Shown here piece by piece: positions 1,307 through 18,310 of a stretch of DNA of 64,000 nt. The DNA is from Hymenobacter volaticus. GTDB taxonomy: Bacteria > Bacteroidota > Bacteroidia > Cytophagales > Hymenobacteraceae. Positions within the stretch are counted from its first letter, which is position 1. The number at the start of each line of letters is the position of its first letter. The stretch covers positions 1-64,000 of the forward strand of contig NZ_CP095065.1 of assembly GCF_022921055.1 (NCBI RefSeq), written 5' to 3'. The notes below the pieces were generated by a model that did no database searches, was not told where the DNA came from, and saw nothing but the letters and a program-made list of their open reading frames with translations. A program made the position numbers and the translations under genes.

Positions 1307-1333
1307 CGGGTGCTAAGGCTTAGATGGTAAGCG

Positions 1334-1383: not shown

Positions 1384-1448
1384 ATGCTTTAATCATTTTA
1401 TAGCTACATAGCTAAGCCCCATTCGCTTTTTAGCATCTAATTACCCTC

Positions 1449-1797
1449 GATAAGGGGCCCTTATCAGGCGTAGAAATTATAAGAGCTACTAAACTGGTGC
1501 GGAAACAGCAGGGCCTTTAACCCGCTTTCAGGAGGCAGAGCTCGAAAGAGGGGCGCGTCAACCCGTCCTGATTATACGCCCACCATCGCCTGCTACCCCT
1601 ACTACTCTATCTGAGTGCAGGCGCGCTGTTAGCTCCGGTGGTGACCGGTCAATTGGCTGGAAACCGCGTTTCAGTCGACCCTTACCGCTCCGCGCTTTCA
1701 GGCGCGGTAACGGATGGAAAAAGGAGTATCCCCCTCGCGCATCCGGAGCAAAAGGGAGTATCCTCGTTTCATCCGGAGTAAAAAGGAGTATCCCCGG
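1449..1797 (+). repeat. Non-coding dispersed repeat, copy 1
   Basis: About 350 bp that matches 17778-18133 in inverted orientation. It begins with the palindrome GATAAGGGGCCCTTATC (1449-1465). A well-conserved middle follows; the run around 1543-1575 is nearly identical in both copies. It ends with three GGAGTATC-type boxes at about 1723, 1755 and 1785, each after an A-rich stretch. Copies diverge immediately left of the palindrome, marking it as the element end. No reading frame is conserved across the copies. Confidence 0.75.
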
Positions 1798-1898
1798 CGT
1801 TTTTACGCCTTAAATCGCCTTTTTATATTTGAGTAAGTGTATAACTTGCTGAATATCAGTTAATTGTATACTTTCCTGCTGTAACGTCGTGCCGGCCC

Positions 1899-2320
1899 TT
1901 ACGCCAACGGGGCGTCGGCTAACGAATCCGCGGTAAGGCGGGAGTGGTCTTCCCATGCACGACGACCTGAAGTTGCGCCGCTCAACGCCTCGGCCGCGGC
2001 TTCGGCGGCCTTCGCTAGCTCGCCTTTGGCGAGATAGAACTCAATGAGCTGAAACTGCTCGCGGAAGTAGGCCTGCTGCTGCGCGAAGGACTTGGCCTGC
2101 AACGCGGCTTGAAAATACTCGTCTAGCAATTCCTGATGCACCTCCTCCCGCGCTGATAGTGCGCCTGAACGCGGCCGCCTCGGCGGCCCCGCGTCAGGAC
2201 CAGTTGGCGGGCATAGGTGTTCACCAGTACGCCGGCGCGGGCGGCTTCTTCTTTGAGCAGGGTATAGTCGGGCACCGGCAACTTGAGGCCGATCTGGGGC
2301 AGTTCTTCTTTGCGAGGCAT
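1899..2320 (-). CDS. Small ribbon-helix-helix-like protein, frameshifted
   Basis: Reads from ATG at 2320: MPRKEELPQIGLKLPVPDYT, then ARQLVLTRGRRGG. This resembles the N-terminal DNA-binding end of ribbon-helix-helix or MobC-type accessory proteins. The frame is lost near 2160 and resumes in another phase with a helical, Ala/Glu/Gln-rich tail (EEVHQELLDEYFQAALQ to DSLADAPLA) ending at 1899, about 140 residues in all. The long hairpin at 2351-2428 lies directly upstream and repeat copy 1 directly downstream. Assignment to a mobilisation or plasmid-type protein is a guess from sequence style and context. Confidence 0.5.
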
Positions 2321-2350
2321 ACACCAAAGGTCCGCACTTTCGGGCCCTTA

Positions 2351-2428
2351 CCCAACCAATACGCGCACGAGTACCCTCCGGTCTGTCCATGCGCTGACCG
2401 GAGGGTACTCGTGCGCGTATTGGTTGGG
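2351..2428. repeat. Very long perfect hairpin (33-bp arms)
   Basis: Arms 2351-2383 and 2396-2428 are perfect complements, separated by a 12-nt loop (2384-2395). It lies between the starts of divergent genes (minus gene starting at 2320, plus gene starting near 2621), so it is not a simple terminator for either. Confidence 0.9.
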
Positions 2429-2620
2429 CTTGGGTTCGGCCGGAACTAGCGCACCCATTTTTCCCTGGCGCTGTAACGAATGACGCGCTCCCCCAGTAGT
2501 CCGCTGACGAACCGAGATGCAGATACGTTCTGCTCTCGAGATAAGGCCGCGTTTCGAACGAGCTAGTAGGCCGTATCTTTCTATTCGTTCTCCTTTTCCC
2601 CGTCCTACTCGACCCACCTG

Positions 2621-4018
2621 ATGAGAATGCCTTCTCTTGCTTCTGCTCCTGCTGCCCACAAGCTGGCTCGGCGCATGCACCATCGTCTCGGGTACCGACC
2701 GCCAAGGCCAGACCTGGGCGATGAACAACGAAGACTTCTTCCATACTGCCTCCAACTATGTGAACGTCTTTCCCGCTCAGGATAAAAGACGCTGGCTATA
2801 TCACCCTTACCTACGGTTCGGCGCAGAGTAGCGTGCAAGGAGGGGTGAATGAAGCCGGCTCTTTTTCGACATCAACGCGTTGCCCCCGCCCCAGAACTAT
2901 AAGCTCAGCGTGGGCAAACAGCCCTTTCCCCACGGCAATATGCTCGAATATATGCTCGAGCACTGCCAAACGGTGCCGGAGTTTTTGGCCTTGTGGGACA
3001 CGTACTACTTGCCGGGCCTAGGCGACCAGATTCATCTGGCCGATAAGGAGGGCAATCTGGCCGTTATTACCCGGATACGATTCTGCGTGCGACCAAGCAG
3101 CTCACCTCCACCAACTTCAACGTGTGTGCCACCGGGGCGCAGAAGCAGAGCTGCTGGCGCTACCCGCTGGCGCAAGCATTGCTGGCCAAGGACGGCGTCA
3201 GCCACGCCAACTTCGTCCAGATTGCCGCTGCCACCTCCCAGCGGGAGTTTACCACGTCGGTCTACACCAACATCCACAATCTCGCCACCGGCGAAATCTG
3301 GTTTTACCTAGCGGAAGAGTACCAAACGCCTTGGCATACGAGTGTACCCGCCTTACTCAAACAAGGCCCACGCCATATCCTGTTAGCCAGCCAATTTCCC
3401 CACAATGCGAGCCGCCGCCTGGCGCAGGTGATGCAAACGACGGGTAGCGCCGCCGCGGTCCACCGCTTTTTAGAAGAAGAAGACTCCTTCAGTGCCAGTG
3501 AAAAGGAGTCGCAGTTACGCCTGGCCTTTTTAGATAACTTCTATATCGAGAAGGATTTCGCCAACGCCCGCGTTCTGTTTCCCTTTGGGAGCAGTATATG
3601 TACACCAACCAGCGCCTGGACAGCACGGAAGTGCAGTTTACCAAAGCCGAGGTTTTGGCCGTCAATGGCCAGAATCAGGCCGCGATTCAGGTGTTAGCGG
3701 CCGTGCAGAAACCGAGTTGGAAAACCACGGCCCTCTTAGCCAATCTGCGCGATACAGAAGAGGCGAACGCCGTCATTGACTTACCCGGGTATGCGCCGCC
3801 AAGCCGTGGTGGTGGAGATCAAAGGCGACTACAATTTCTTGCGCGTCATGCAGAAAACGCCCACCGGGTGGCGTTTACGGGTAAAGTCGGACCGGAAAGA
3901 AGTAAAGTATTGCTTCTACATCAAGGGCAAGCGCGTTATAAATCCAGCGCAACCCATCGTGGAGCAGCAGGAAACGGCCAAAGGGGATTTTGCTTCGTTC
4001 AACACGCTCCAGCTGTAG
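2621..4018 (+). pseudogene. Choloylglycine-hydrolase-like Ntn hydrolase, multiple frameshifts
   Basis: Secreted linear-amide C-N hydrolase family protein (penicillin V acylase/bile-salt hydrolase fold), about 460 residues. A hydrophobic signal stretch (LLLLLLPTSWLGA) leads straight to a Cys, in CTIVSGTDRQG, which would be the Ntn nucleophile, followed by WAMNNED. Later pieces in successive frames are GVNEAG..FFDINALPPPQNY, LEYMLEHCQTVPEFLALWDTY, the core NIHNLATGEIWFYL and a C-terminal extension ending VEQQETAKGDFASFNTLQL. Breaks fall near 2790, 2848, 3085, 3590 and 3780. Most look like single lost bases, but the number makes real decay possible. Substrate unknown. Confidence 0.65.
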
Positions 4019-4513
4019 GGTGGCTCTTTTCCTACCCGTCTCTCTACGGCCGCTAGGTTCGGCAGCAAGCATCTGCTAGGAGCTGTGCGCAACACCCCAG
4101 CAAAGTAAAACCCGCGCCTGATTGTAGACTGCTTGCCGGGGCAAAGCGGACAGCAAGCCAGCTCGTCTACTTGCTCCCCTCAGAGCTCTACTTCCCTTAT
4201 CTAGCAAACCCGCTTTTCAACGAAACGGCCGCTAAAGGGGAAAGAGGGCGCACCAGCTTCTGTCGTAGAGTGAACCTGAAGTAGCTAACACTGGAAGGCG
4301 AAAGGGTACACACCAGTACCTTGTGCCGTGGCCGGTAGAGTGAAGTAAAACTTGTCGCTTGATGTCCGAGAAGCAACTTTATGTAAAGCAGTTTCTTCAG
4401 AAATGTAGAAGATAGTATTTAGATGTGCTCTTCGTTCCGTCTAACTTAGGCTTATGGCAGCAAGGCTAACTTTCGTTAGGCCTGTTGTTGCAGTCGAAGC
4501 GGTACAGTTTACC
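4019..4513. other. Gene-free spacer with inverted-repeat motif
   Basis: No supportable gene. It holds TGTCCGAGAAGCAACTTTAT at 4363-4382, the same motif as the right terminal repeat of the small cassette at 16192-16607 and as 31391-31405. Confidence 0.5.
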
Positions 4514-5033
4514 ATGGCCCACGATCTTGCTACCCTCAAAGCCCATTTTCTCTCGAGCGATTGGACCATTAGTGAGCCGGCGCTCGATGCCCTGATCTCC
4601 CTGGCGAGCCGGAGGTGTTGGATTTCTTACTCGCCCTGCTCGATCAACCCGATGTGTTGGTTCGCAACCGAGCTTGTATTGCCTTGCATGAGATCGGCGA
4701 TAGCCGGGCCGTCCCGGCGCTCCTGCAGGCGATTCGCAAACCAGAGAATGAGGCATATCGCGGCAGTTTGGTGTACGCGCTGGAGTATCTGGATTGCCAG
4801 CACTTACTACCTGATCTGTTTGACTTACTGTTTTATGGCGATTCCGAGGTGCAAATGGGCGCCAAACGCATCTTAGACCACCAATCCTTTACCTTCCGGG
4901 CGATGATCTCTACGCCATAAAAAGTAAATGGGAGGCTATTCGAGGGCAGTTAGAACAACGAGTGAATCCCTTTACGACCACCGAAGAGATCCAGGCGTGT
5001 GTAAACGGCTTTCTGGCCTATTTGCGCGAGTAA
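4514..5033 (+). CDS. HEAT-repeat protein, two frameshifts
   Basis: About 170 residues starting MAHDLATLKAHFLSSDWTIS. It contains tandem HEAT-type helices: EPEVLDFLLALLDQPDVLVR, then ACIALHEIGDSRAVPALLQA, then YALEYLDCQHLLPDLFDLL. The frame changes near 4607 (one G missing in CTGGCGAG) and near 4900; the tail SKWEAIRGQLEQRVNPFTTT continues to the stop at 5033. HEAT proteins of this size are helical scaffolds and often sit among immunity-type genes; the role here is unknown. It is the first gene of the small-orphan island. Confidence 0.65.
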
Positions 5034-5089
5034 CAGAGTCCGAACTGTAAGCCGACCATCAGCCAAGACTATTACCCCCTACTTTCCTT

Positions 5090-5416
5090 ATGCATGCTTT
5101 TTTGAAGGCCAAAGAACGGGAGCTGAGCATCCTCAAAGATGATTACACGGAGCTCTGGTTTTTAGGGGCCGAAATCCATACGCTCTATCCAGAGGCGTCC
5201 TTGCCAGAATTACAGCAGGTGACGCAGCATGAGCACGTCATCCGTGACCTGATGCGCGAGCAAGCCGTCCAGCTACTTGATCCTGGCACAGAGTTACCAG
5301 TCTCTAGTAGTGAGGAGCGCGTCCGCGAGATGACCGGAACCTTGTTTCCCGGCATGAACCGACTCCCCACGATTGGCGATGGTATCTGGTTGGGAATACT
5401 CCCCACGCACGAATAG
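5090..5416 (+). CDS. Hypothetical protein (108 aa)
   Basis: Intact frame starting MHAFLKAKERELSILKDDYT, 56 bp after the HEAT gene on the same strand, so possibly co-transcribed. It is soluble, acidic and mostly helical with no signal peptide. No family recognised. Reading frame and codon use look genuine. Confidence 0.55.
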   Translation: MHAFLKAKERELSILKDDYTELWFLGAEIHTLYPEASLPELQQVTQHEHVIRDLMREQAVQLLDPGTELPVSSSEERVREMTGTLFPGMNRLPTIGDGIWLGILPTHE

Positions 5417-5439
5417 GCCATGGCGAAAGAGCCAAGTCT

Positions 5440-5466
5440 ATTAAACATAATTCGACTTATACGACA
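5440..5466 (+). repeat. AT-rich spacer motif, copy A
   Basis: ATTAAACATAATTCGACTTA followed by TACGACA. It recurs with one gap and few changes at 10879-10906. It sits about 105 bp upstream of the next plus-strand gene, so a promoter role is possible. Confidence 0.55.
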
Positions 5467-5570
5467 CTTATTATGAACTGCCCCTCCTGCTCAACGCGTG
5501 ACGCCAGCAGGCTGCCCTCACTTGAGACGCAACTTTATCTGCACTCTATCCAGCTACTTTTCTCCTCCTT

Positions 5571-6452
5571 GTGCTGCTGTTGAGTAGCTGTTCCCCTTCG
5601 GCTGCCGAACTCGAGCGGTATCGCTCCCTCGATGAAACCTTGCAACCGCTCAACGCCGCGGCCTGGCAAGCCACTTACCTGACGGTGAAGGGAATAGAGG
5701 CAAACACCGAAATGAGCCGATTTCAGCGGGCGGATGTGACCTTGCTGCAGCAGGCGCAGGCGCAACATGCCCGCACTACGCGCTCTTAGCCACCTTGGAT
5801 TCTATGCGCCACATGCTGCTGCAAGCCACCGGCAATGAGCAGGGCTTAGCGGAGTTAGATGCCCATCGTACGGTGACCCAACTCTTGTTTGCGCATGGGG
5901 CGGCGCTCGCTTTACAACAAAAGCTCACCACCTATGCCCATTCATTTCAGGTGAGCACACGGGGCTTCCAGTATTGTTTCGCACCCCGACGCAGCTGCAG
6001 CAACTTTACCACGATGCGCCCTTAGTCGCCGTGTTAGCTTGGCTTTCCCAGGCGAAAGCCGAAGTCCTGCGCGTACACGCCACGGGTCTGCAGCCCTTAG
6101 CCGCTAAAGTGGGCGCAACGCCGACTTTAGCGGCTATGACTTTGCCTCGGCCGTCGCCGAAACGCGGACCATCGCGGCCGGCGACACGTACCGAGCCACT
6201 CTGTTCTTGTCGCACTCGCTTCCTGCTGTCGTTTTAGAAGGCATGCGCGTCAATGGCCGGCCGATTGCCCTGGACCGGTTAGGACGCGGAAAGGTCTCGT
6301 TTCCAGTACCCCGTTCCGCTACCGGAAAAGCTGACAGCGTCACGGCCCATTGGACCGGTACCATCCGGGCCTTGATCGGTACGCGCTCCGACTCGTTCAC
6401 GATCCGCGTGCCGTATACCATTGTCAATCCGTTGAACCGGTCAGATAAGTGA
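5571..6452 (+). pseudogene. GldM-like lipoprotein, several frameshifts
   Basis: The frame opens with a lipobox-like LLLLSSC near 5571 and a helical N-terminal part (ELERYRSLDETLQPLNAA). It continues in shifted frames: LDSMRHMLLQATGNEQGLAE, then RTPTQLQQLYHDAPLVAVLAWL. The C-terminal part, GDTYRATLFLS..MRVNGRPIALDRLGRGKVSFPV..IRVPYTIVNP, resembles the helical domain plus first Ig-like domain of gliding-motility protein GldM. Full GldM is larger, so this is a short GldM-like relative or a degraded copy. The start is uncertain: the lipobox frame uses GTG and the true ATG may be upstream in another frame. Breaks fall near 5780, 5980 and 6130. Confidence 0.45.
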
Positions 6453-6584
6453 GTAGAGCGTAGGCTCGTCAGCAGAAGACAAGCAGGCTAAGGGGAAAAG
6501 ACACTTTATAAGAATATAATTTTACTGGTGTTAAAGTGCTAGAATGCAACCAACTCATTCCTTAGATAAGTTGCTTAACATAAT

Positions 6585-8078
6585 TGGTGTGGCTGTTGCA
6601 AAAGTCAACTCCTGGTGGGATTTAAGTGTTAGTGACTCATGCTTGGCTTTCACCCGATCCAGACGTCGCTGATCAAATTGGTCCCCGCTCACCACTTTTA
6701 CCAGCAACTACTGCAGACGGTTGATTTCAACTTTGTGCGGCCCTGTTCGCGCCTTTTTACAGCGCAGGCGGTCGGCCCTCGCTCGATCCCGTGGTGTTTG
6801 TCAAGCTGCTCTTGGTCGGCCACTTGGAGAATATCACCTCCGATCGCAAACTCCTGGAACTGGCGCAATTGCATCTGGGTATCCGTGCCTTTTTGGGCTA
6901 TGATCTGGCCCAGCCCTTGCCCTGGCATAGTACCGTCTCGCGAACGCGGCAACGCTTACCGGTCTCCGTCTTTGAAGCTTGCTTTACGCACATTGTCGGG
7001 TTGTGCATTCAGCAGGGCCTGGTCAGCGGCCATACTCAAGCCGTTGATTCCGCTTACATTAAAGCCAATGCCTCCATGAGCCGGCTCCAGTCCAAGCGTT
7101 CAAGGACCTCCACGCAGGCGACAACCAACGCAGCCCCGCCAACGCCCCATGCATCACCGCTTCGGTGGACCGCTTGCAGCATATCCAACGCTTTCATGCC
7201 GCCATCCGCAAGGCTGCCCCGACCAAAAGCGGACGACTCGTTAGCAACCTGACCCACTACAGTCCGGCGGATCCAGAGGCCCGCATTTGCTTCAAAACGG
7301 GCAAGGTTCGCCAGTTGGCCTACACGGCTAGCGTGAGCGTCGATGTGGCCAGCACGTGATCACGCACATTCACGCAGACTTGGCTGACTGGCGCGACAGC
7401 CGGTATTTGCTGGCCATTGTAGACGCTACGCAGCAACGGTTAAACGGCTTCGCGCTGGCCATGACTACTGTTATCGCGGATGCCGGCTACAGCTCAGGGG
7501 AGAACTACGAGCAGCTGGAGGAACGTGGTCTGACCGGCTATATTCCGGCCCATGGCAAATACAAAGTCGAGCACGCCGGCTTTACTTACGATGCGGCCCG
7601 TGACCGCTATACCTGCAGCCAGAGTAAGCAGCTGACGTTTGACAAGGTGTTCGTCGATGCGCAGGGTAATCCTAAGAAACGCTACATGGCCAAGGCCGCC
7701 GAGTGCAAGGTCTGTCCGCTGGCGGCACAATGCAAAGGCAAGAAGGCCCGCGAGAAACGGCTACATCATACCCCTACAAAGCTCATTATGAGCGCATGCT
7801 CGCGCGGTTGGCCACGCGGGTTGGTCAACGGATGCGGCGACTACGCGCGTCAACCGTCGAACCCGTACTGGGCAGTTTGATCACCTACTATGGCTTGCGC
7901 CACCTCAGCAAGAAGGGCCAAGCAGGAGCCGCCAAAGTCCTGTACATAGCCGCGATGGCCTATAACTTGAAGAAGTGCCTGCGCTTTCACGCCTGCCAGC
8001 CGGGCAATAGCGTGATCTCCCTACCAGCACCCGGGCCCGTTCGTTGGCTCATACTCTACTTTTGCAACAGCCACTGGT
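6585..8078 (+). mobile_element. IS1182-type insertion sequence, complete ends
   Basis: Bounded by 17-bp inverted repeats GTGGCTGTTGCAAAAGT (6589-6605 and complement 8058-8074) and flanked by a 4-bp target duplication TGGT (6585-6588, 8075-8078). Removing the element and one TGGT restores ACATAATTGGTGTTATAA, which is found uninterrupted, on the other strand, at 14911-14932. It carries one transposase gene, which is frameshifted. Confidence 0.85.
6639..8057 (+). pseudogene. IS1182-family transposase, frameshifted
   Basis: DDE transposase. The N-terminal domain reads MLGFHPIQTSLIKLVP, then SLDPVVFVKLLLVGHLENIT and LPWHSTVSRTRQR. The catalytic half has AVDSAYIKANAS (first Asp), ADAGYSSGENY (second Asp) and a zinc-like CKVCPLAAQC before RARLATRVGQRMRRLRAS-type helices and GLRHLSKKGQAGAAKVLYIAA. 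The frame is lost near 6748, 7110, 7353 and 7770. Each break is restorable by one base in a C or G run except the ambiguous stretch at 7090-7170. The exact stop is unclear because the last open frame runs through the right inverted repeat. Residues match the truncated copy at 41 kb closely. Confidence 0.8.
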
Positions 8079-8254
8079 GTTATAACCGACACTCAGGAAA
8101 AATAATAAAATGGTTGCCGATTTTAGAGTGCGTTGATTTTGTGTCTTGCTAATTTCTAAGCTGACACTTATGCTCGTGATGAGGCGCTATGAATGATGCT
8201 CTTTCCTCATCATCTCCATCGAATCTATGATCGTAAAACTGCGGGCATCAACCG

Positions 8255-8992
8255 TCACAAACTTGCCAGCCCAATGCCCCATAGGTACCTAGCAGGCCAG
8301 TGCCCAAACCGCTTCACTTTTCGCTTTCGATCCCACCAGAAGAAGCTGGTCTTATCCTGGTAGGAAGCGTAAAAAATAAGATTGCCGTAACTCGGAGACA
8401 GGGCGTGCGACCCTTCAAAGTCTCGGGGTGTGGGCTGTTGTAAGACTCGAAAGTCGGTCAAGCGCACCTCCAGCAACGGAAAGTCGGTGTAGCTATAGGC
8501 CAGGATGCTATCCTTGCCCAGTTTACAAAGCGCATAACAATGCAACATCCAGTAGGAATACTGCGAGTTAAGGCCGTAAACCCGTTCGCCATCCAGCCCA
8601 AACACGGCGACGCCATCACTGCTCGGCTTTTTCCCACTGACTATGCCGGAGTCCTGATAGGAAATCACAATCCGATCGGCGTGAACCAGCACCTGCTCGA
8701 TGTAGTCACCTGCATCAAAGCAGCGCACCAACTCACCGAACGGGTTGAAAATATAGCCGTTACTGGGGGAGTAAGCCCCGGCATCAATGACGACGAAGTG
8801 TCCGGCCTTTAGGTCTCGAATGCGTGGCGCTTTAAACGTTCGTGGCAGCGGCAGACGGGACAGGTTTCCCCCCACGTTTTGCCACACTTCTCCATTGCTG
8901 AGCAAAGCAATATAGTTGCCGTCTTCGTCGGCATCTAGATAGAGAATCTCATGCTTGCCACAGTCGAGCGGATAGGTGGTAGAGAAGGCCAT
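8255..8992 (-). CDS. Hypothetical beta-propeller-like protein (245 aa)
   Basis: I take the internal ATG at 8992 (MAFSTTYPLDCGKHEILYLD) because the upstream 47 codons are Arg/Ser-rich, unlike the rest, and would overlap the divergent gene at 9132. The body is a run of short beta-strand blocks with Asp/Gly turns (DADEDGNYIALLSNGEVW, FVVIDAGAYSPSNGYIF, GVAVFGLDGERVYG), suggesting WD- or NHL-like blades. No signal peptide. Possibly an immunity-type or cytosolic sensor protein; function unknown. Confidence 0.6.
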   Translation of the reverse strand: MAFSTTYPLDCGKHEILYLDADEDGNYIALLSNGEVWQNVGGNLSRLPLPRTFKAPRIRDLKAGHFVVIDAGAYSPSNGYIFNPFGELVRCFDAGDYIEQVLVHADRIVISYQDSGIVSGKKPSSDGVAVFGLDGERVYGLNSQYSYWMLHCYALCKLGKDSILAYSYTDFPLLEVRLTDFRVLQQPTPRDFEGSHALSPSYGNLIFYASYQDKTSFFWWDRKRKVKRFGHWPARYLWGIGLASL

Positions 8993-9131
8993 CAGCTGAA
9001 AGATACTACGGCAGCTGGAAACGGAATAAGGTGCACGACGGCTAGTATATCTAAACCGTAACGTTTGTTGAACGGTGCTCGAAAAGACGTTACGAGCTAT
9101 GTATCCTCTACAACCATCTTCTTTATAGTCC

Positions 9132-9528
9132 ATGCCGGATCATCTACAAGCGTTTCTGACCGCGTTTCTGGCCAAACGCTACCAACAGCGTACGGAAGCG
9201 AACCAAAAGCCTCAAAAAGGCAACCCATGCTTGGCTTGGATAACTTGTCCGCCGCTTAGATCTGCGCTACTGTACTCAACTGCCTAAAGGCAGTAAGCAA
9301 GACGATATAGCCTTCGTGCGGCAAGCGCTCAACCCCTATCACGTAACCACGTGTTATGTGCTTTCTGCTTACGAGCCGTTCCATGCGCGCACCATGCGCC
9401 TGGACGAGGCGCTCGAAGTCATTGTGGGCGAGAGCAACACGACCATCCTTTCCTTCTTACCCGGCAAGGTAGCCTACTTCGAAGGGCACGCGGTTGGTGA
9501 CCGGTACCTGTGTGTACGCCAAGACTAG
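9132..9528 (+). CDS. Hypothetical protein, frameshifted
   Basis: Starts MPDHLQAFLTAFLAKRYQQR at 9132 and ends in another frame with FHARTMRLDEALEVIVGESN and VAYFEGHAVGDRYLCVRQD at 9528, about 130 residues. Frames change in the poorly defined stretch 9170-9250. The clean end of the frame and the divergent layout with the gene at 8992 suggest a real gene. Family not recognised. Confidence 0.4.
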
Positions 9529-9740
9529 GGCCATCGAATGCTTTGCTTTTTTGACCGCACAATGCTTCTAACCTTAACCATAAATGAGCACCAGCTCTGT
9601 TACTTGCTTGGATAGCTCGCGTTCCAAGAGATTTTAGTCATTTGGCATTTTACAAACGTGCGTTGAACAACTGTCCAATTAAAGGGGAGCGTCTTCGCCG
9701 CTATTTAAGTAAGCCCACACCGGTTTAGGGCCGCGTTACC

Positions 9741-10253: not shown

Positions 10254-10349
10254 CGGCTCAAGATAGAAAACGAAATCGCTTTCCGCTCGCTATGCGCACT
10301 AGCAAGGCTTGATAAGGGGTTCACTAGTGATTCGAACGCAATACAGCCT

Positions 10350-10374
10350 GTTCGAAATGATCTCTATTTCGAAC
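10350..10374 (-). terminator. Hairpin between two minus-strand genes
   Basis: Arms GTTCGAAAT (10350-10358) and ATTTCGAAC (10366-10374) with a 7-nt loop, followed by a second weaker stem near 10398-10420. Position downstream of the gene ending at 10517 fits a terminator. Confidence 0.35.
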
Positions 10375-10516
10375 ACCTTTACTACCCCCTTCAACGCCCC
10401 TGAAAACGCGGGTTTTCGAGGGCATTTTTCACTAGGTAATCCGAACACCAGTTGCCAGAGGTCCTTTGTCTGCCCCGGAATCCTGTTGTGCCCCCACGAT
10501 AGCAACTAGAAAGCCG

Positions 10517-10822
10517 TTAGAAGAAGACGGCGACTACAGCCGGGATGAAGAGAAGAGCCACAATTCCGAGATTGAGCAAAAACAGGCGTCGGTAGCGCCG
10601 GGCTTGAGCGAGGCGTGGCCGCGTAAAGGTACCCGATGGCGCACCCCACAGAGTCAGGATAAACAACGGAACACCTAGCCACAGCGCCGCGTAGAGATAG
10701 TAGGCGATGGCCGCACAGGACCAGTGCAGGATATTGCAGCTAATAATGGTGAGTAGGCCGAAGAGATTCAACCCTAAGTTCAGGTACAACGCCAGCCAGG
10801 CGAAGGGCGCTAGGTTAGCCAT
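10517..10822 (-). CDS. Small integral membrane protein (101 aa)
   Basis: Starts MANLAPFAWLALYLNLGLNL. Three or four hydrophobic helices are visible: residues about 5-28, 33-47, 49-63 and 80-101. A positively charged loop (RPRLAQARRYRR) precedes the last, giving a cytoplasmic loop by the positive-inside rule. No family recognised. Confidence 0.55.
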   Translation of the reverse strand: MANLAPFAWLALYLNLGLNLFGLLTIISCNILHWSCAAIAYYLYAALWLGVPLFILTLWGAPSGTFTRPRLAQARRYRRLFLLNLGIVALLFIPAVVAVFF

Positions 10823-10878
10823 AAGACCAAAGCAGGAAGAGTGGACGGGAATGGCCTAGTATAAGCGCCTGCATTCCT

Positions 10879-10906
10879 ATTAAATATAATTGGTACTTAT
10901 ACGACA
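10879..10906 (+). repeat. AT-rich spacer motif, copy B
   Basis: Matches 5440-5466 over almost its full length (ATTAAATATAATTGG then ACTTATACGACA). It lies in the spacer before the plus-strand gene at 11103. Confidence 0.55.
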
Positions 10907-11102
10907 TCATGGAAAGCCTTGGGGTAATATGATTCCTAGCTTCCTGTTCTGTCAATTCAGAAACAAGGCACTTGCTGTGAACCCCTCAGGCTATAGGAGC
11001 TTTCAGCCTACATACAAGACTCCTCTGTAGACCTAGGTTTGATATTTGCGAGGCTATGCTTCGAATAATAGTCAAGAGCACTTACCTCTTCTATCTTAGT
11101 TT

Positions 11103-11840
11103 ATGCCAATAGGCTGCTTTCTGCTCCTGCTTTTTTCCGGGATCCTAACGGCTTCTCGTGCGCAGGGACAAGTTCAAGAATATATTATTAATGGGGACTT
11201 TGAAACGATGAGTTCTTGTCCCATCGAACCGGGCGAAATTCGCTTAGCAACCGGTTGGCAGGGCAATGAAGGCACACCGGATTACCTGCACACCTGTTCG
11301 GAACAGCGGCGAGATTCGGTGGATGTGCTCCGTAATTTTAGCGGGTACCGGAAAGCGTACGAGGGCGAAGGACAGGCGGGTTTGTACTTGCTTCATTATA
11401 ATACCACTCGGGGAGCGAAAGAGAACTATGCTTCCCATGAAGTCATCTACACCAAGCTGAGTCGACCTCTGACGGTGGGCAAGACATACCATATTCGCTT
11501 TTTCCTGTCGTTAGCTGATTCATCCGGTATTGCGAGCGACTCGATCTATGTCTCCTTCTCGAGGAGTCCTTCGTTCACGAAACACTATGAGTTGGTGGAG
11601 CCCGACGTTTCTAAAGGAATTGCCGTGGCCCGTCAGCACACCTGGCAAGTAGTGGAAGCTGACTTTACTGCTACCGAACCCTTTTCCTACTGTTACCTTG
11701 GTCTTCCGCGAAGAAAGGTAAGCCGCCTAGCCTATCGGACGATTATTGGTCAAGGGCTACAAGCAGGCAGACTGCAAGGCCGTTTTGTTCTCAACGCCTA
11801 TTATTTTATCGACAATGTTTCGCTAACAGAGCGAGAATAA
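11103..11840 (+). CDS. Secreted protein with carbohydrate-binding-like N-domain (245 aa)
   Basis: Signal peptide at residues 1-20 (MPIGCFLLLLFSGILTASRA). The mature part follows the pattern of the galactose-binding-like domain found before OmpA modules in Bacteroidota: NGDFE near the start, CPIEPGEI, then TPDYLHTC, YEGEGQAGLYLLHY, LSRPLTVGKTYHIRFFLSLAD and a final YYFIDNVSLTE. No OmpA peptidoglycan-binding domain follows, so this is the stand-alone form or a natural truncation. Complete frame. Confidence 0.65.
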   Translation: MPIGCFLLLLFSGILTASRAQGQVQEYIINGDFETMSSCPIEPGEIRLATGWQGNEGTPDYLHTCSEQRRDSVDVLRNFSGYRKAYEGEGQAGLYLLHYNTTRGAKENYASHEVIYTKLSRPLTVGKTYHIRFFLSLADSSGIASDSIYVSFSRSPSFTKHYELVEPDVSKGIAVARQHTWQVVEADFTATEPFSYCYLGLPRRKVSRLAYRTIIGQGLQAGRLQGRFVLNAYYFIDNVSLTERE

Positions 11841-12075
11841 GAACTTTTCAAGCAAGGGAAACAAATCCCTGGATATAAGTAAAAAAACGATTTGGAAATT
11901 GAATTTTTCTGTTGCTAGGAACGAAGCAATCATCCGCTTAATTTCTTGATAAAGTTGCTTAACGTAATGTTTTTTATAAGCTCTCTCCCGGAATAGTGAC
12001 GACTTTTGCCCTTAATGCCCTCCCTCTAAATCGTAGTACTTTAATGATAACCTCTATCCTCGGCCCTTCAGCATT

Positions 12076-12672
12076 ATGGGACTTAATTTTCGATATGTGA
12101 TGCTTGTTAAGCAAGCAGATGAGCAACGTCTACTAGCTCACATCTTGCAAGCAGGATCCATCCAGCAGCTACCAGAGCCATTCGGCACTTGTCTTACGCT
12201 CACTTTCCCGCTTGATGACGCGTTACTGTGGTATTTGCAGGGCTCAATTGATGGTGCCTATAATGCGTACACGGATAATAGGAAGCCGAAATACTTCCTC
12301 AATAAAAGCGAATACCGCGACCACTTCCCTACCGACACGAGTGGACGCGTTGGGTGTATTTATTTAGAGTCCAAGCAAATACAGGCAAGCGACTACTCTT
12401 TTTTCAGTTTTGATGCCGCCACTTCGGCCATGAGCCGGCTGTTTCAACACTCGCTTAGTATTAGAAACTGGTTTCTAGACTTAAGTGGCATTCTAGAGGC
12501 AGAGGCTACCTTCTTGGATTTAGAGGCGGAGGGGTACGAATTCATTTACCGGCAGGGACAACCAATCGGAGCGACGCTCACGCAGGACCTGGAAGTGAAG
12601 ATAGCCGCAGAGATAGACCAGCAAGCCGTGGTGGCCATCTGCCGTGACTACGACAACCTATTTCTATTATAG
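12076..12672 (+). CDS. Hypothetical protein (198 aa)
   Basis: Complete frame starting MGLNFRYVMLVKQADEQRLL, no signal peptide, mixed alpha/beta with many aromatic residues and a C-terminus VVAICRDYDNLFLL. The sequence style resembles single-gene immunity-type proteins in such islands, but no family is recognised. The next gene begins 88 bp later on the same strand. Confidence 0.55.
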   Translation: MGLNFRYVMLVKQADEQRLLAHILQAGSIQQLPEPFGTCLTLTFPLDDALLWYLQGSIDGAYNAYTDNRKPKYFLNKSEYRDHFPTDTSGRVGCIYLESKQIQASDYSFFSFDAATSAMSRLFQHSLSIRNWFLDLSGILEAEATFLDLEAEGYEFIYRQGQPIGATLTQDLEVKIAAEIDQQAVVAICRDYDNLFLL

Positions 12673-12760
12673 GGAGCTCCTAACAGCCAAAGAACAGTGC
12701 TCAAGCAAGCATTATAAGCCATTTGTCATTTTACAGAGGGTCCGTCAAAGAAAACAAGCC

Positions 12761-13117
12761 ATGAAAAGAAAAGCAGTTTTCTTCGTTGCCTCGCTCCTCG
12801 TTCTCTTGGGCTTACTCGTCTACCAGCTGGCCACTTTTTCCATTTTTGATACCAACCCTCCGCAGTTGCTGAGGCAGGTCGATCCTCCCAAGACACAGCA
12901 GCGCTTCACCCTCTATACGATTGCCTCAAACGCCACCGTGCCAAACGGCATTCAAGTCCGCGAAGTGCGAGCGGGCCAAGAAGTAGTAGTCGGGTTCTTT
13001 CCCGGCTATACCAAGCTGGTAGCATCTAGCACCACCGACCAGCACGTACGCCTTCACTTGCGGGATACGCTAGGCAACCGAAAAGACAGCCTCATAACGC
13101 TGACTTTACGGCACTAG
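12761..13117 (+). CDS. Small membrane-anchored protein (118 aa)
   Basis: I place the start at ATG 12761 (MKRKAVFFVASLLVLLGLLV), which gives a charged N-terminus and a single hydrophobic segment at residues 5-25, a signal anchor or uncleaved signal. The rest is a small beta-rich domain (FTLYTIASNATVPNGIQVRE, LHLRDTLGNRKDSLITLTLR) facing the periplasm. Upstream codons of the longer frame overlap the preceding gene and are unlikely. Confidence 0.5.
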   Translation: MKRKAVFFVASLLVLLGLLVYQLATFSIFDTNPPQLLRQVDPPKTQQRFTLYTIASNATVPNGIQVREVRAGQEVVVGFFPGYTKLVASSTTDQHVRLHLRDTLGNRKDSLITLTLRH

Positions 13118-13178
13118 GGACCTCTTTGCTTAGGGGAAGACTTGGTTTACAGACTATATATTAAACATATAATATTTT

Positions 13179-13217
13179 AATTGTCATTTTACAAACGACC
13201 CTCATAAAGTGACAATT
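13179..13217. terminator. Inverted repeat between convergent genes
   Basis: AATTGTCA (13179-13186) and TGACAATT (13210-13217) flank 23 nt in an AT-rich gap between convergent gene ends at 13117 and 13251. It could terminate both; it also contains the spacer motif CATTTTACAAACG shared with 9646-9658. Confidence 0.35.
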
Positions 13218-13250
13218 GGCCTACTCGCTCGCGTAATGCTTTTATTTGCC

Positions 13251-13631
13251 TCAGCGTTTGCGCCAAGCCGCCCGGTTCTTTCCCACCTGATAAGGCTCAT
13301 AATAGTAGAGTCTGCGGCCTCGGCGGTTGAAGTAGATCGGTTGATGAGGTAAATCGCCCGCCGTTACGGTGAGTAGAAGCTGCTGCTTCCGCAGAGAGTA
13401 CGAACCGCTTTGGGTTTCCTTGCCGATCGGAACCGCGTGCTTGCTCGGGGGAGTGGCAAACGTGAACCGTGTCAAGACAAAGGTAGAGTCACACGAGTTA
13501 AGGGAGAGAGTACCGACAAAGAAGAGAAGACGGTGAGGGGACTCGCTCACACGCTGGATAGAGTAGCGTTCAGCACACAGCGGCCAGGGCAGTAGGCGTA
13601 GGGCAAAGCAAAGAGACAGGAGCATCATCAA
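13251..13631 (-). CDS. Small secreted hypothetical protein (126 aa)
   Basis: The N-terminus MMMLLSLCFALRLLPWPLCA is a plausible signal peptide. The mature part is basic and beta-rich (LLFFVGTLSLNSCDSTFVLT, KQQLLLTVTAGDLPHQPIYF) and ends YQVGKNRAAWRKR. No family recognised. Complete frame, convergent with the gene at 12761. Confidence 0.45.
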   Translation of the reverse strand: MMMLLSLCFALRLLPWPLCAERYSIQRVSESPHRLLFFVGTLSLNSCDSTFVLTRFTFATPPSKHAVPIGKETQSGSYSLRKQQLLLTVTAGDLPHQPIYFNRRGRRLYYYEPYQVGKNRAAWRKR

Positions 13632-13747
13632 ACACTGAATAGGATGGGCCAGGTACGGGTACGGGTACTGGTCTTGGACTGATTTGTCCGCTTTCTTGGC
13701 CGTTGTTCAGAAAAGGGGATGTAGTGCTGTGAGGAAGTCAAGCCATG

Positions 13748-14200
13748 CTATGGCCAATACCTTTTAAGCCTGCTCCAAGTAGCAGGAGAGTGGACGTCAT
13801 GCCATGGTTTTCCTGCCCAGTTTGGAAGCGGGTTGGAATCCTCTAGCAACCCGTCACAGCGTTGTAAAACGACCAACAGGGACGTTTCCAAGTACCGATA
13901 GCTGAGCGTGGTGCGTGGCGCTGATTCCAGGCTAATGCAGTGGGGCATAGCAGGAAAGGGGAGCCAGTGGGAGTTGAACCCTGCTGTCTCCTTCAGCAGC
14001 GCTATCTTCTGTAAGCGATCGGTCGACCAGCTTAAGGAAAGGAGCTGTTCAGGATGGGCGGGATGAAAAACTGTTAAGTGGGTCTCGTCTTGTGAAGCCA
14101 CGCCAATCGCGATTCTGGTCAAGCTCCTTACCTGAGTTACTACTTGCGCAGGTGTCGGCGGAGTGACAAAGCAGACGTAGCGAATTCGAAGGCTTCCCAT
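13748..14200 (-). CDS. Hypothetical protein (150 aa)
   Basis: Starts MGSLRIRYVCFVTPPTPAQV and ends ATWSRLKRYWP. No signal peptide or membrane segment. Alternating beta/alpha pattern with an ESAPRTTLSYRYLETSLLVV core. No family recognised. Complete frame. Confidence 0.5.
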   Translation of the reverse strand: MGSLRIRYVCFVTPPTPAQVVTQVRSLTRIAIGVASQDETHLTVFHPAHPEQLLSLSWSTDRLQKIALLKETAGFNSHWLPFPAMPHCISLESAPRTTLSYRYLETSLLVVLQRCDGLLEDSNPLPNWAGKPWHDVHSPATWSRLKRYWP

Positions 14201-14363
14201 CGGCGAAAGCTACGTTGTTCAGGCTTGTAGACCAAGTGTGGAAGACCGCGCGCTGTCATTAAACGGCTCTCCATCTCTAGCCTGTAACATCTTCTCGAGC
14301 CGTTCAACAAACGTTACGGCTGTTTGGTTGGTGAGTAGCAGGCGCTATGAAAAGGAGTTCTGT

Positions 14364-14792
14364 TTAGCCATTAAACCGTCTGTTTAGGAACATGTGTTTG
14401 TGACCAGGCTGAATAGGAAAAGCTTGATCAATAAACGTGGTTAGTTCTTGGCTAGCCTTGCCTTCGATGATAGTGGAATATACTTCCACCCCACTCACCA
14501 GGGTCTGTCCCTCTTCTAGGTCTACTTGATAACAATCCAGTGCGTCGTATAAACGGACGAGGACCTGTTGGCCATACGTATTGCTGTAGTCCGTTTCGCG
14601 TTGCTTGGCCCACTGGTCGGCCAGTTCATACGCCCTGTCCGCTGATTCAGCTTGCAATAGCACAATGCTTTCTTCGTAGGCTCTCACGTCCGGCTCAAAG
14701 AGCGCATCCACTAGAGCTGGAATAGGCTCGCCAACCAAGGTATAGGTAAACAGTAACTTAACGCCATACCATTCCTTAGTTTCATGTGTCAT
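14364..14792 (-). CDS. DUF4288 domain protein (142 aa)
   Basis: Starts MTHETKEWYGVKLLFTYTLV. The signature of the small DUF4288 family is visible: WYGVKLLF at the start, YEESIVLLQAESADRAYELA in the middle, a DYSNTYGQQVLVRLYDALDCY core and GVEVYSTI near the end. The family is cytosolic and is common beside polymorphic-toxin immunity genes in Bacteroidota; its molecular role is not established. This is the clearest hint that the surrounding orphans are an immunity-type island. Confidence 0.65.
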   Translation of the reverse strand: MTHETKEWYGVKLLFTYTLVGEPIPALVDALFEPDVRAYEESIVLLQAESADRAYELADQWAKQRETDYSNTYGQQVLVRLYDALDCYQVDLEEGQTLVSGVEVYSTIIEGKASQELTTFIDQAFPIQPGHKHMFLNRRFNG

Positions 14793-14910
14793 GTTGCGAT
14801 TGATGCAGATGTTGTTAGCCTTGATAGTGAGCGACCATAGTTCCTAGAAAAGTACCTAACTAAACAAAGATGAGAACAGCTGGAAATGTATAACAAATCA
14901 TAGGTTCCGT

Positions 14911-14932
14911 TTATAACACCAATTATGTTAAG
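14911..14932 (-). repeat. Uninterrupted copy of the IS1182-type target site
   Basis: On the minus strand it reads ACATAATTGGTGTTATAA within a 22-bp match to the sequence rebuilt by excising the element at 6585-8078. It lies about 120 bp upstream of the DUF4288 start. The rest of the gap 14793-15255 shows no gene. Confidence 0.7.
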
Positions 14933-15255
14933 AAATTTTTCCGGGGAATAGCACAGGCCAGCCAGTCGCCTATTTCTCGTTTCTGTCTAACTAGAGTGGT
15001 ATCGGCATTTGCAAACCCGGCCAATAGTGCGCCTCGTAAGCATTGTTAATTGCAAGGGTGTGCGGCCTGTTGTTGTCTGTTGTTTGCGACACAATAGGCC
15101 ACAAAGACACGCTGGATAGAGTTTAGGAAACTCACTACCTCGCAGAGTTTCCTGAACGTTGATTGGTAAACTAGCTTCTTAAGCTCGAATAGGGCCACCG
15201 TACGAGAATAGAAGCCTTACGAGCCCCACCAGTTGCTGTTCAGGGAAAGGAGAGC

Positions 15256-15843
15256 TTAATAGGTCACATCAAACCGCCCATTGCGAATCGTTATGAAGGT
15301 GCCCGGAGTAAAGCCCTCTTCGAGCCGGCCCTCAAAAGTGCCGGAGACAATACGTCGAACCGTATCGACGCGCGTAAGGACAATGCGCGTCGACTTTGCG
15401 CGGCTGACGAAAAGCTGTCGGAGGCGCCCCTCCGTTAGCATTAAGCCGGTCGCCCCGGTGGCCACTCCCCCCGGCATCGAGGAGGCCGGGGGCCGCCCCG
15501 CCCAGTATGTACCGGTTCCCCGCAACGTATCGATGCGTAAGCCAAAACTTTCCTGATGGCGGGCTGTCGCTAATCCGGCCGATAGCGACAGCGAACGCAC
15601 GCCGTTGAAGGTGCTCAAATCTGCCTGCAACTTGTTCTCGAAACAGCCGCCGCCCCCGAAGCCAAAGCAGCCCCGGCCGTAGTTGACCCAGACGCGCTCG
15701 TCGATCTCAAAACCCAGGGTATTGGCCCCCTCGGACGTAACCGCTGGCAGTTTCAACCGGGGTTCGGGCTCGGTGGTGTCGCACCCGAGAAGCAAAAACA
15801 GCCCCGGCAGCCAGCCGAACGAACGATACGGGGAAGTTTTCAT
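15256..15843 (-). CDS. DUF6252-like lipoprotein (195 aa)
   Basis: Start at ATG 15843 (MKTSPYRSFGWLPGLFLLLG) gives a lipoprotein signal with Cys near residue 21 (LLLGCDTT). The mature part has the pattern of a Bacteroidota lipoprotein family: a GFEIDERVWVNYG block, a glycine/cysteine turn (GRGCFGFGGGGCFE), a beta-strand series, and a closing IVSGTFEGRLEE...ITIRNGRFDVTY as in DUF6252 proteins. Likely periplasmic face of the outer membrane; function unknown. Confidence 0.6.
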   Translation of the reverse strand: MKTSPYRSFGWLPGLFLLLGCDTTEPEPRLKLPAVTSEGANTLGFEIDERVWVNYGRGCFGFGGGGCFENKLQADLSTFNGVRSLSLSAGLATARHQESFGLRIDTLRGTGTYWAGRPPASSMPGGVATGATGLMLTEGRLRQLFVSRAKSTRIVLTRVDTVRRIVSGTFEGRLEEGFTPGTFITIRNGRFDVTY

Positions 15844-16011
15844 GGTAGACCAGTTAAATAGGAATGCGCGCAAACCTAGTCGCTGTGTCAGTGCTGCCCA
15901 ACCTCATGTACTGATTAAGTAGGCGTTGCTGCTACCCTTGGCTTCCTAAATATGCAGTGAACCTCAGTAAGTTACTGTAGAAAAAAAGGACTTTTCATTT
16001 GGCATAAGGCG

Positions 16012-16057
16012 AAGCGTTGGCCACCTTGTGCGCCGAAACACAAGGTGGCCAACGCTT
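16012..16057. terminator. 19-bp-arm hairpin
   Basis: Arms 16012-16030 and 16039-16057 (AAGCGTTGGCCACCTTGTG and complement) with loop CGCCGAAA. It lies 170 bp upstream of the lipoprotein start and 180 bp left of the cassette, so which gene it serves is unclear. Confidence 0.5.
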
Positions 16058-16191
16058 GATTCGTACACGGAAACGGTGATTTAAGTACTTACCGTCTTTC
16101 AGTTAGGGATCTGATAGGGGCCCGTGATCAGGCCGTATGTCTGCCAGGTATCAAATTGGTGCGAATAGGGAGCGGAAAGCAGGCTCGCCAA

Positions 16192-16607
16192 TGTCCGAGA
16201 AGTCTTTTTTATGTTAATCACCGAATAAAACTAGAAGGCCATCCGTTTTACTAGCCTGGACGGCCGTCTGAATTGCTTGTAGTTTTGCTGTTGGATACCC
16301 CTGCTTTTCCGCCAGTTCTATCAGCTTTTGCCACTGCGAGCGATATAACCGGGAGATGCCCCCATAGGGGTCGACCGGAATACCAGCCGTTTGGCTGAAA
16401 GCATAAAGCAATTCTTCTAAAGGCGTATCAATGGGTAGGCTGCCTAGCCACTCTCTTGCTTGTCCTTCCTGCCAGTATATATCAAGCGGCATTGAGCTGG
16501 GAGTTGTTTATTAAAGTCATTAGATAAACAAAGTATAGGAAGTGCCTACTTAGTGGGGTGTTAACAAGTTAGAATAAGCTGGTTATCATAAAGTTGCTTC
16601 TCGGACA
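16192..16607. mobile_element. 416-bp inverted-repeat-bounded gene cassette
   Basis: Left end TGTCCGAGAAG followed by a T-rich TTTATG (16192-16213). The right end is the complement of TGTCCGAGAAGCAACTTTAT (16588-16607). The 11 terminal bases are identical and similarity continues inward. The one small minus-strand gene inside ends against the left repeat. No target duplication is obvious. The same end motif occurs alone at 4363 and 31391. Confidence 0.5.
16214..16492 (-). CDS. Small hypothetical protein inside the cassette (92 aa)
   Basis: Starts MPLDIYWQEGQAREWLGSLP and ends SKTDGLLVLFGD; its stop codon abuts the left terminal repeat. Acidic, helical and cytosolic, reminiscent of small immunity-type proteins. 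No family recognised. The only gene between the two inverted repeats. Confidence 0.55.
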   Translation of the reverse strand: MPLDIYWQEGQAREWLGSLPIDTPLEELLYAFSQTAGIPVDPYGGISRLYRSQWQKLIELAEKQGYPTAKLQAIQTAVQASKTDGLLVLFGD

Positions 16608-16871
16608 GTTACAACTACTTAGATACAACTCTTTCCCTTCCTTCAGGCGTTCGACAAAACGCGCTAGGACCTACCATTCATCCGAAGAAGAAGGAAGCAA
16701 GAATATATCCGGGGTGTTCTCAGCAGGCAGAAAACAGAGCGTGTTGCTTTCCGCTACCGGACCTTCTTGGCCCGGAAAGGGCAGTAAGGGAATAGCAGGG
16801 AAGCCCTAGCGGGTGTAGCGACCTTCGATCAAGGCGATAGCACCGATGGAAGCGCGTAAGCGGGCCCTACG

Positions 16872-17486
16872 CTACTGTAACTGGCTCTGCAAACGCGCTA
16901 GATCCGGTTGCATTTTCGTTTTGATCTGCTCGAGGCACTGCCGCACCGCCTGCAGGTACACGACCCGGCCCGGTTCGGCATAGTTGGTGGCGCTAAACAG
17001 ACCCCACACGGCCTTGGCTTCGCCCTCAGCCCGGTAGGTGGCCACGAGTCGCCGTTGGCTATCGAGCACATCGAGCTGGGTGGAAACCGTGGTTTTCCAC
17101 GCCGAGAGGGGCATGCCCACGGCGTTGGGAATGAACAGCGTCAGCCCCGATACCAGCAGCCACGCAGAACCACGGGTCGTGAGGGGCGTGACCTTGAGTT
17201 CTAAGAAGCCTTTCTTATCGCCGTACGGCGCCGTGAGGGCTTCCCTCGTCTCGCGCTCAAATAAGGTAGCCACATCGCGGGAACGAGTGGCTACCACACT
17301 CCCATCGCCATCGGGCCCGACCACCACCGTGACCTCGTCCAGCTCATCCCGAACGTGGTTCTCCAGGGCCGGCAGCTTCGGGCTAAGGGTGACCGCGGTA
17401 GGGTTTAACAGACCAGGGTCGAATGACTTACAGCTGACGCAAAAGAGTAAGGTGATTAGGCTGCTAGAGCGGAGCAAGGGCGACAT
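16872..17486 (-). CDS. Putative lipoprotein (204 aa)
   Basis: Start at ATG 17486 (MSPLLRSSSLITLLFCVSCK) yields a lipoprotein signal with lipobox CVSC near residue 19; the 54 upstream codons lack protein character. The body reads LPALENHVRDELDEVTVVVG, then an ATLFERETREAL helix, then a hydrophobic segment GSAWLLVSGLTLFIPNAVGM that could dip into a membrane, then STQLDVLDSQRRLVATYRAE and a helical tail VYLQAVRQCLEQIK. No named family recognised. Confidence 0.55.
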   Translation of the reverse strand: MSPLLRSSSLITLLFCVSCKSFDPGLLNPTAVTLSPKLPALENHVRDELDEVTVVVGPDGDGSVVATRSRDVATLFERETREALTAPYGDKKGFLELKVTPLTTRGSAWLLVSGLTLFIPNAVGMPLSAWKTTVSTQLDVLDSQRRLVATYRAEGEAKAVWGLFSATNYAEPGRVVYLQAVRQCLEQIKTKMQPDLARLQSQLQ

Positions 17487-17777
17487 GGGTGGAGAGTAGA
17501 GGTGGGCGTTAGGGAATAGGAACCGAGAGGAGGGCACGTCGGCTCCAGCCTTCCCGTCGGTCGTGAAGGAGGCAAAAAGTCGGAATTCCTCCTGCGGGCA
17601 CGGGAAAGGACCTGCTGCGAGAAGCAGACAGCACAAGGAGCAGGCCAAGGGGCGAAAGGTTGTAGCAGGGCGGCTTTGAGGGTGCTACACAACCGGCGAA
17701 AATGCGATAAATGCTTGGCTTCTAGTATTTTGTTCGCTTTCGCAAGAGGAAAACAGCAGCTTTTAGGTCGAAAATCC

Positions 17778-18133
17778 CTGGAGATACTCCCTTTTTTGTC
17801 CGGATAGCGACTGGGGATACTCCCTTTTTGCTCCGGTTGGCGAAGGAGATACTCCTTTTTTCATTCGGTTACCGCGCCCAAAAGCTCCGGAGCCGCAAGA
17901 GGCCAGACAAAAACGCGGTTTGCAGCGAATTGACCGGATCACCACCGGAGCCAACAGCGTGCCTCCGGCCAGACGAAGCAGTAGGTGTAGCGGGCGATGG
18001 TGGGCGGATAATCAGGACGGGTTGACGCGCCCCTCTTTCGAGCCCCGCCTCCTGTAAGAGGGTAAAAGGCCGCGCTGTTTCCGCACTGCTTCAGTGATCG
18101 ACATTTTTCTACGCCTGATAAGGGGCCCTTATC
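17778..18133 (-). repeat. Non-coding dispersed repeat, copy 2 (inverted)
   Basis: Read on the minus strand it starts with GATAAGGGGCCCTTATC (18117-18133), follows copy 1 (1449-1797) with small gaps, and ends in three GGAGTATC-type boxes (about 17848, 17815 and 17785). Short open frames inside differ between the copies. Confidence 0.75.
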
Positions 18134-18251
18134 ATGACTATACACAGTTGCTATAGGCACCTTGCTAGGGACGTTTAGAAAAGAGCCAAGCTGTTTACCC
18201 TGCCGCCTGCTGGTCCACTACCTAACTACCTCCTGTCATAAGAGACCCGAA

Positions 18252-18287: not shown

Positions 18288-18310
18288 GTAGATTTAAGAC
18301 CGGTCAGAGC

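Follow-up and report, generated by a model that had tools for sequence, protein, structure and literature searches.

The first 64,000 nucleotides of contig NZ_CP095065.1 of Hymenobacter volaticus (the window) carry a repeat of about 350 bp in two inverted copies, each of which has the same 17-bp palindrome, GATAA-GGGGCCC-TTATC (the core), at its outer edge. We consider it likely that this palindrome is the inner 17 bp of a lox-like site of approximately 37 bp, and that plasmid gene blocks are joined at such sites through Cre-like recombinases. Genomes compared are cited by G-numbers (G000 is the present genome), contigs by C-numbers and fetched loci by L-numbers, and any contig other than the 5.3-Mb chromosome contig C1 is termed plasmid-like.

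In the proposed mechanism, the palindrome would consist of GATAA, a 7-bp spacer and TTATC inside the recombination site. Plasmid-borne Cre-like tyrosine recombinases would recognise such sites, each enzyme reading its own 10-bp outer arms, and recombination partners would need matching spacers. Sites with the GGGGCCC spacer would form a dispersed class whose two arms are often unlike (types L, R and E), and crossover at identical spacers would have joined, at the core, gene blocks that are unrelated and come from different plasmids. One such block would be the 16.7-kb stretch 1449-18133, with an E arm at each end (sites L/E and E/R). The 350-bp repeat would be its E-type end, composed of the E arm, about 170 bp, a segment with a T-run and three boxes at 33-bp spacing.

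Block junctions at a dispersed palindromic core

The two copies, at 1449-1797 (+) and 17780-18133 (-), matched over their full length with 82% identity. Substitutions between them were even over the three codon phases (23/19/20), as expected of non-coding DNA. Both copies (~355 bp) carry the palindrome at the outer edge, where the similarity halts, and three boxes at the inner edge, and more was shared between them than palindrome and boxes. The earlier note on this DNA had described these inverted non-coding copies, and its observation that they bracket a 16-kb island is explained if they are the two ends of a module.

The repeat is carried by C5, a circular plasmid-like contig of ~219 kb (contig record 242,618 bp). 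The last ~23.3 kb of C5 repeats the first ~23 kb of the window, with gaps and zero mismatches in the two main local alignments (a quicker alignment opened 49 gaps on the window side and 82 on the side of the end copy, with 17 mismatches), and C5 was therefore read as an untrimmed circle. When window 1-10000 was compared with C5:219290-242618, the window lacked single bases seen in the second reading, which breaks reading frames there. Further copies, which the earlier note had proposed to seek in related genomes, were found. The genome search gave five matches, two of which were the same C5 copies read twice, so that the distinct copies are two on C5, one on C4 (C4:175244-175586) and two in the relative G101 (at most 6 candidates were scored per genome of a relative). 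Additionally, the inner half alone was present in G050, G026 and G070. No match to copy b was obtained in the named plasmid collection.

The palindrome ends both copies of the repeat, as had been noted, but it is not specific to the repeat and recurs with many different flanks at many sites that lack it. The core occurs five times in the window: the matches at 1449, 18117, 18815 and 29591 are exact bar the orientation of the central base, and that at 32888 has one mismatch. One further match, at 16113, has 3 mismatches; the number of matches expected by chance was 0.08. In the whole genome, exact cores were found at 16 places, or 13 once three read twice were removed (C1, one; C4, four; C5, four; C6, three; C10, one), which places 12 on plasmid-like contigs and 1 on the chromosome. 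The general pattern GATAA-N7-TTATC had 29 matches, of which 26 were distinct and 25 of these lay outside the chromosome contig, compared with 6 matches for the reversed control pattern. An exact core was present in only 2 of 204 family genomes, namely the present one and G101; at up to one mismatch it was present in 12 of 120 genus genomes, nine of which have the spacer CGGGCCC or TGGGCCC. The sole chromosomal copy lies in G000:C1:3393001-3432999, a stretch with a GC content of 0.47 (other C1 samples, 0.44-0.57) that is perhaps an integrated island; tyrosine recombinase matches lie on both sides of it, at 3391103 and 3448820 (the latter below the cut-off).

The sites and module ends in the window are as follows, with arm types assigned by thresholds that we set.

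1439-1475, + strand: hybrid lox-like site, with L arm (aattaccctc), core 1449-1465 and E arm (aggcgtagaa)
18107-18143, + strand: hybrid lox-like site, with E arm, core 18117-18133 and R arm (atgactatac)
18805-18841, - strand: lox-like site, with L arm (right side on the + strand) and core 18815-18831, other arm lost
29581-29617, + strand: lox-like site, with L arm, core 29591-29607 and R-like arm
32878-32914, + strand: lox-like site with one core mismatch (spacer GGGGCTC), left arm of R type, right arm unassigned
1449-1797, + strand: E-type module end, copy a (358 bp in the second reading)
17780-18133, - strand: E-type module end, copy b

To compare junctions, 28 sites (from G000 and G101, and one from G117; some with 2 core mismatches) were oriented by the central base and their flanks were compared outward from the core. 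Several pairs showed 0.4-3 kb of homology starting at the core on one side and unrelated sequence on the other. Specifically, the left flanks of L058 and L059 were 92% identical over 1.2 kb from the core, the right flanks of L051, L058 and L061 were 83-90% identical over 3 kb, and the right flank of L050 matched the left flank of window site 18117 at 87% over 1.45 kb. Homology blocks ended at a core in both sequences in 19 of 1108 cases, against ~0.02 expected if ends were random; the 19 are not independent, and in this count blocks below 300 bp and self-matches were removed and tandem-repeat blocks retained. Similar junctions were seen at variant spacers. The CGGGCCC sites of G035, G059 and G080 had left flanks 92-93% identical over 1.5 kb up to the core and unmatched right flanks, and two sites of G004 and one of G023 showed one-sided homology that runs up to the core (81-94% over 0.7 kb).

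In addition, the E end lies to the right of the core at 1449 and on G101 C5, and to the left at 18117, on C4 and on G101 C16. On C4, the stretch corresponding to window 18117-18815 has an additional 3.1 kb, and this difference, which at site 18815 includes the second arm, stops at the core. Because homology between otherwise unrelated blocks starts at the core and on one side only, the core appears to be the crossover point, in line with the recombination-site reading that was among those offered in the earlier note. Elsewhere on the contig, L157:2476-2544 (C5:202475-202543) is a 69-bp palindrome, perfect except for the central base, with the spacer GGAGTCC and R-like arms on both sides; it is perhaps the product of an inverted exchange.

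Plasmid recombinases and their upstream sites

The plasmid-like contigs of the genus encode tyrosine recombinases of ~320-390 aa, and the pattern GATAA-N7-TTATC, which had been derived from the dispersed sites before any recombinase gene was examined, is found near their start codons, beginning between 148 bp upstream and 12 bp inside the start used. Twenty-four recombinases were picked by us by size and score, with duplicate fragments on C4 and C6 and Xer-type genes left out. Of the 24, 20 had an exact site in the interval from 300 bp before the gene to 60 bp inside it, and spacers of 4-6 or 8-10 were found at none. Shuffles gave 0.010, and downstream regions gave 0 exact matches and 1 at one mismatch. 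Among named plasmid records, an exact site was found at 13 of 18 recombinases and a site with at most one mismatch at 14 of 18, one on a Runella plasmid (shuffles: 0.000 exact, 0.275 at one mismatch; downstream: 0 and 0). These 18 were chosen by us down the ranking from 40 listed matches (998 records matched), and for H1 the beginning of the match served as the gene start. Relatedness is common in both sets, so that their members are not independent. In contrast to these, five further tyrosine recombinases, namely two Xer in each of G000 and G101 plus one on C1, had no site at up to one mismatch.

The outer 10 bp of each recombinase site are mutually inverted (mean 8.3 of 10 positions, versus 4.8 between different sites). 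Moreover, the outer arms covary with protein identity (Mantel r 0.63, p 0.0001), whereas the 7-bp spacer showed no clear tracking (r 0.09, p 0.07); this test covered 21 of the 24 recombinases, the 3 without a site at one mismatch being left out and one of two G034 sites being chosen. We infer that enzymes of this family carried out the joining. The L arm of window site 1449 matches, at 10 of 10 positions, an outer arm in the sites that precede the G0_C2 and G1_C14 (G101 C14) recombinase genes, and the most probable reading of 1449-18133 is therefore a gene module with a hybrid lox-like site at each boundary and the 350-bp repeat as its end. At C4:203371, ~2 kb from a recombinase fragment, another site has an L-type arm on each side and GTAAACG as its spacer.

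The catalytic residues R165, K192, H271, R274 and Y306 were conserved in 9 of 9 aligned plasmid recombinases. Position 297 (L102 numbering) is His or Gln in the family, with Gln in all 22 members of alignment A5; its equivalent is His in the two Xer genes aligned and Trp in Cre. Against solved structures, phmmer gave 4e-9 for Cre and 0.005 for a XerC-like protein, and in a Foldseek search with a recombinase model (mean pLDDT 79.5) ranks 1-30 were Cre or its variants (TM ~0.4-0.5). By sequence and modelled fold, the nearest solved protein is thus Cre, not Xer, although NCBIfam Xer models also matched, far below cut-off, in a library that gave no Cre model. Serine recombinase matches were present as well, between 1 and 14 per genome in six genomes.

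Objections and alternative explanations

Several observations weigh against recombination by these enzymes at the core. Some flank homologies start 7-54 bp away from it, and one pair of sites, on C4 (L008:10571) and at window 18117, is alike on both sides. Empty sites, which the earlier note had suggested looking for, were not found. One named plasmid, NZ_CP095047, is 90% identical to the left flank until ~30 bp short of core 1449; the ~5.9 kb retrieved from the region of this match contained no GATAA-N7-TTATC at up to one mismatch, and the search with the right flank gave only a 70-base match. The exact site is absent at 4 of the 24 and 5 of the 18 recombinases (3 and 4 even at one mismatch).

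The arms raise further difficulties. The window sites have unequal arms (L/E, E/R), where a Cre/lox site would have two equal ones, and arm types at the two ends of a module agreed in only 9 of 12 assignable cases by our own reading (~6 expected). No E/E site was found in the 120 genus genomes at up to 3 mismatches, nor any exact E/E or R/R pattern in the genome contigs searched, and no recombinase was found whose own site has E or R arms. An assignment of E to both ends of the G101 C5 module was dropped, as its right end extends like an R arm. By tblastn, no recombinase of the family was detected in the window or the other fetched site loci (the positive control worked). The recombinase on the same contig (C5:181508) has other arms, as does the C6/C16 recombinase, which is 98.8% identical between the two genomes with GGGGCCC sites. 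Additionally, spacers are mostly AT-rich in the recombinases' own sites and GC-rich in the dispersed class, so that direct exchange between the two classes is not expected and, we infer, probably does not occur.

The lack of an E- or R-arm recombinase would suit an explanation in which the host chromosomal XerC/XerD use the dispersed sites, as at Acinetobacter pdif, and in which the Cre-like enzymes of the plasmids do no more than resolve plasmid dimers, each at its own AT-spacer site. The hybrid two-arm sites and modular exchange do resemble pdif modules as presented in PMC13141974, and G000 has a XerD gene that passes the NCBIfam cut-off and a XerC-like gene that narrowly misses it, with homologues 96-98% identical in G101. 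However, the spacer is 7 bp, not 6, and the L arm matches a Cre-like recombinase's own site throughout. Moreover, with the pattern only once on the chromosome contig and an exact core in so few family genomes, the site is not a genus-wide chromosomal dif. GC skew, sampled at 21 positions on C1, was too noisy for a terminus to be located. We regard host Xer action as unlikely.

We consider it very unlikely that 1449-18133 is a transposon with long inverted terminal repeats and that the palindrome is a target duplication or a favoured target. Such an element could account for two inverted ends with identical 17 bp at both outer edges and a transposase gene inside. Nevertheless, the core recurs without the repeat and with many different flanks, and is therefore not a target duplication made by it; the same finding speaks against the MITE-like element proposed in the earlier note. 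In addition, no second repeat copy was found on C4 or on G101 C16 (within the candidates scored for G101), and the only transposase recognised, which has a DDE domain, sits mid-module. A conserved regulator operator, with genes moving with their promoters by other means, seems equally improbable. It would fit the right arms, which are conserved past 15 bp, and the orientation of the nearest open reading frames (ORFs; at least 80 aa, called mechanically): of the 28 right flanks, 20 have theirs pointing away from the core, and of the 28 left flanks, 18 have theirs pointing towards it. An operator would not explain why homology stops at the core from either side, why E ends lie on either side of it, or why the same core form precedes tyrosine recombinase genes, its arms varying with the enzyme. 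The lox-like site is our preferred explanation.

The 350-bp end, module cargo and known systems

The remaining features concern the inner half of the repeat and its neighbours.

1723-1792, + strand: three GGAGTATC boxes of copy a (at 1723, 1755 and 1785)
17783-17855, - strand: three GGAGTATC boxes of copy b
1899-2744, - strand: remnant of a NikA/MbpA-like ribbon-helix-helix gene, 3' end towards the boxes, frame broken in both readings
16872-17648, - strand: putative lipoprotein gene adjoining copy b (lipoprotein call by eye)
1466-18116, no strand assigned: module cargo, comprising a HEAT-repeat protein, a GldM-like protein, a transposase with a DDE domain, a DUF4288 protein and many unknowns

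Within the repeat end, the first 27 bp (core and E arm) are conserved; a variable stretch follows, then a conserved T-run block and the boxes. The three boxes per copy reported in the earlier note were confirmed: six of the seven GGAGTATC boxes in the 64 kb lie within the repeats (0.75 expected). They are spaced 32/30 in copy a of the window (33/33 in the second reading) and 33/32 in copy b, and the spacing is also 33 bp in G050, G026 and G070. The structured RNA that had been suggested for the repeat was not supported: the covariation term was unfavourable (+3.45) and 9 of 91 predicted pairs differed on both sides, in an alignment of five copies with little power. Rfam matches in window 1-20000 numbered five, all below gathering scores and all outside the repeat. 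Overall, the earlier interpretation was partly supported.

The remnant at 1899-2744 is homologous to open frames of 146-173 aa in G101, G050, G026 and G070; in these genomes (in G101, on C16) the gene ends near the boxes and reads towards them. Its products resemble NikA/MbpA mobilization proteins (relaxosome accessory proteins) weakly, with scores below curated cut-offs, and one homologue is annotated by its source as a plasmid mobilization protein. Unlike in NikA/MbpA systems, no relaxase of PF03432, the one relaxase family searched, was found close to the boxes in 6 genomes. Since the inner half is found beside this gene on other plasmid-like contigs, it is probably a protein-binding region of mobilization or partition type at the module end, to which the boxes may contribute; this is the weakest part of our account. 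The putative lipoprotein gene also adjoins the repeat on C4 and G101 C5 (84-94% identity), and had no match in Pfam, PHROGs or NCBIfam.

Other observations were made around these features. Just upstream of the mobilization-like gene, window 2351-2428 is an inverted repeat with ~34-bp arms, whose inner sequence resembles the boxes by eye; Rfam miRNA matches there were below cut-offs. In L030, L041 and L042 (G004 and G023), a block like the T-run block of the repeat (TTCGCTGGAAAACAGCCTTTTT in L030) abuts TGGGCCC or CGGGCCC sites in the opposite orientation. Window 18311-23053 encodes Type IX secretion sorting domains and a long tandem-repeat protein, and related repetitive proteins adjoin several sites on other contigs.

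More broadly, we lean towards the view that Hymenobacter plasmids have their own dif-module-like system, run by diverse plasmid Cre-like recombinases and not by host Xer, in which hybrid half-sites of two recombinases with a shared GC-rich spacer serve as universal joints and some modules have a 350-bp mobilization-like end. If so, site-specific recombination would have given rise to modular plasmid assembly on more than one occasion, here in another phylum. The recombinases would also offer a natural series of enzyme-site pairs, with arms readable upstream of the gene in 33 of the 42 recombinases examined, which could help in learning how tyrosine recombinases choose DNA. Among open-licence papers, none was found on tyrosine recombinases of Hymenobacter plasmids or on lox-like plasmid modules in Bacteroidota, the combination seen here was not met, and those returned for site-specific recombination in Hymenobacter plasmids were off-topic by title.

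The loxP site has the layout 13+8+13. The Hymenobacter sites differ in their 7-bp spacer, GATAA/TTATC inner ends and ~15-bp arms, in the second, dispersed class with GC-rich spacers, two unlike arms and no recombinase found beside it, and in the joining of modules across plasmids. Cre-type systems (Cre/loxP of phage P1, Nigri/nox and Panto/pox) are known and used as tools (PMC4957104), and the likeness to them lies in a Cre-nearest tyrosine recombinase, an inverted-arm site beside its gene, and arms that follow the protein while the spacer is free.

Acinetobacter dif modules combine a XerC arm and a XerD arm around a 6-bp spacer and are stated, in PMC13141974, to be unique to that genus. Those sites and the present ones have in common that they are dispersed on plasmids, carry two unlike arms and mark junctions at which accessory genes are shuffled, and the same module was likewise found here in different contexts with its junction at the site. 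Compared with the Acinetobacter pdif, the present sites have a longer spacer, an arm that fits the site of a Cre-like plasmid recombinase in place of XerC/XerD arms, and an E arm type with a 350-bp end, and they occur in another phylum.

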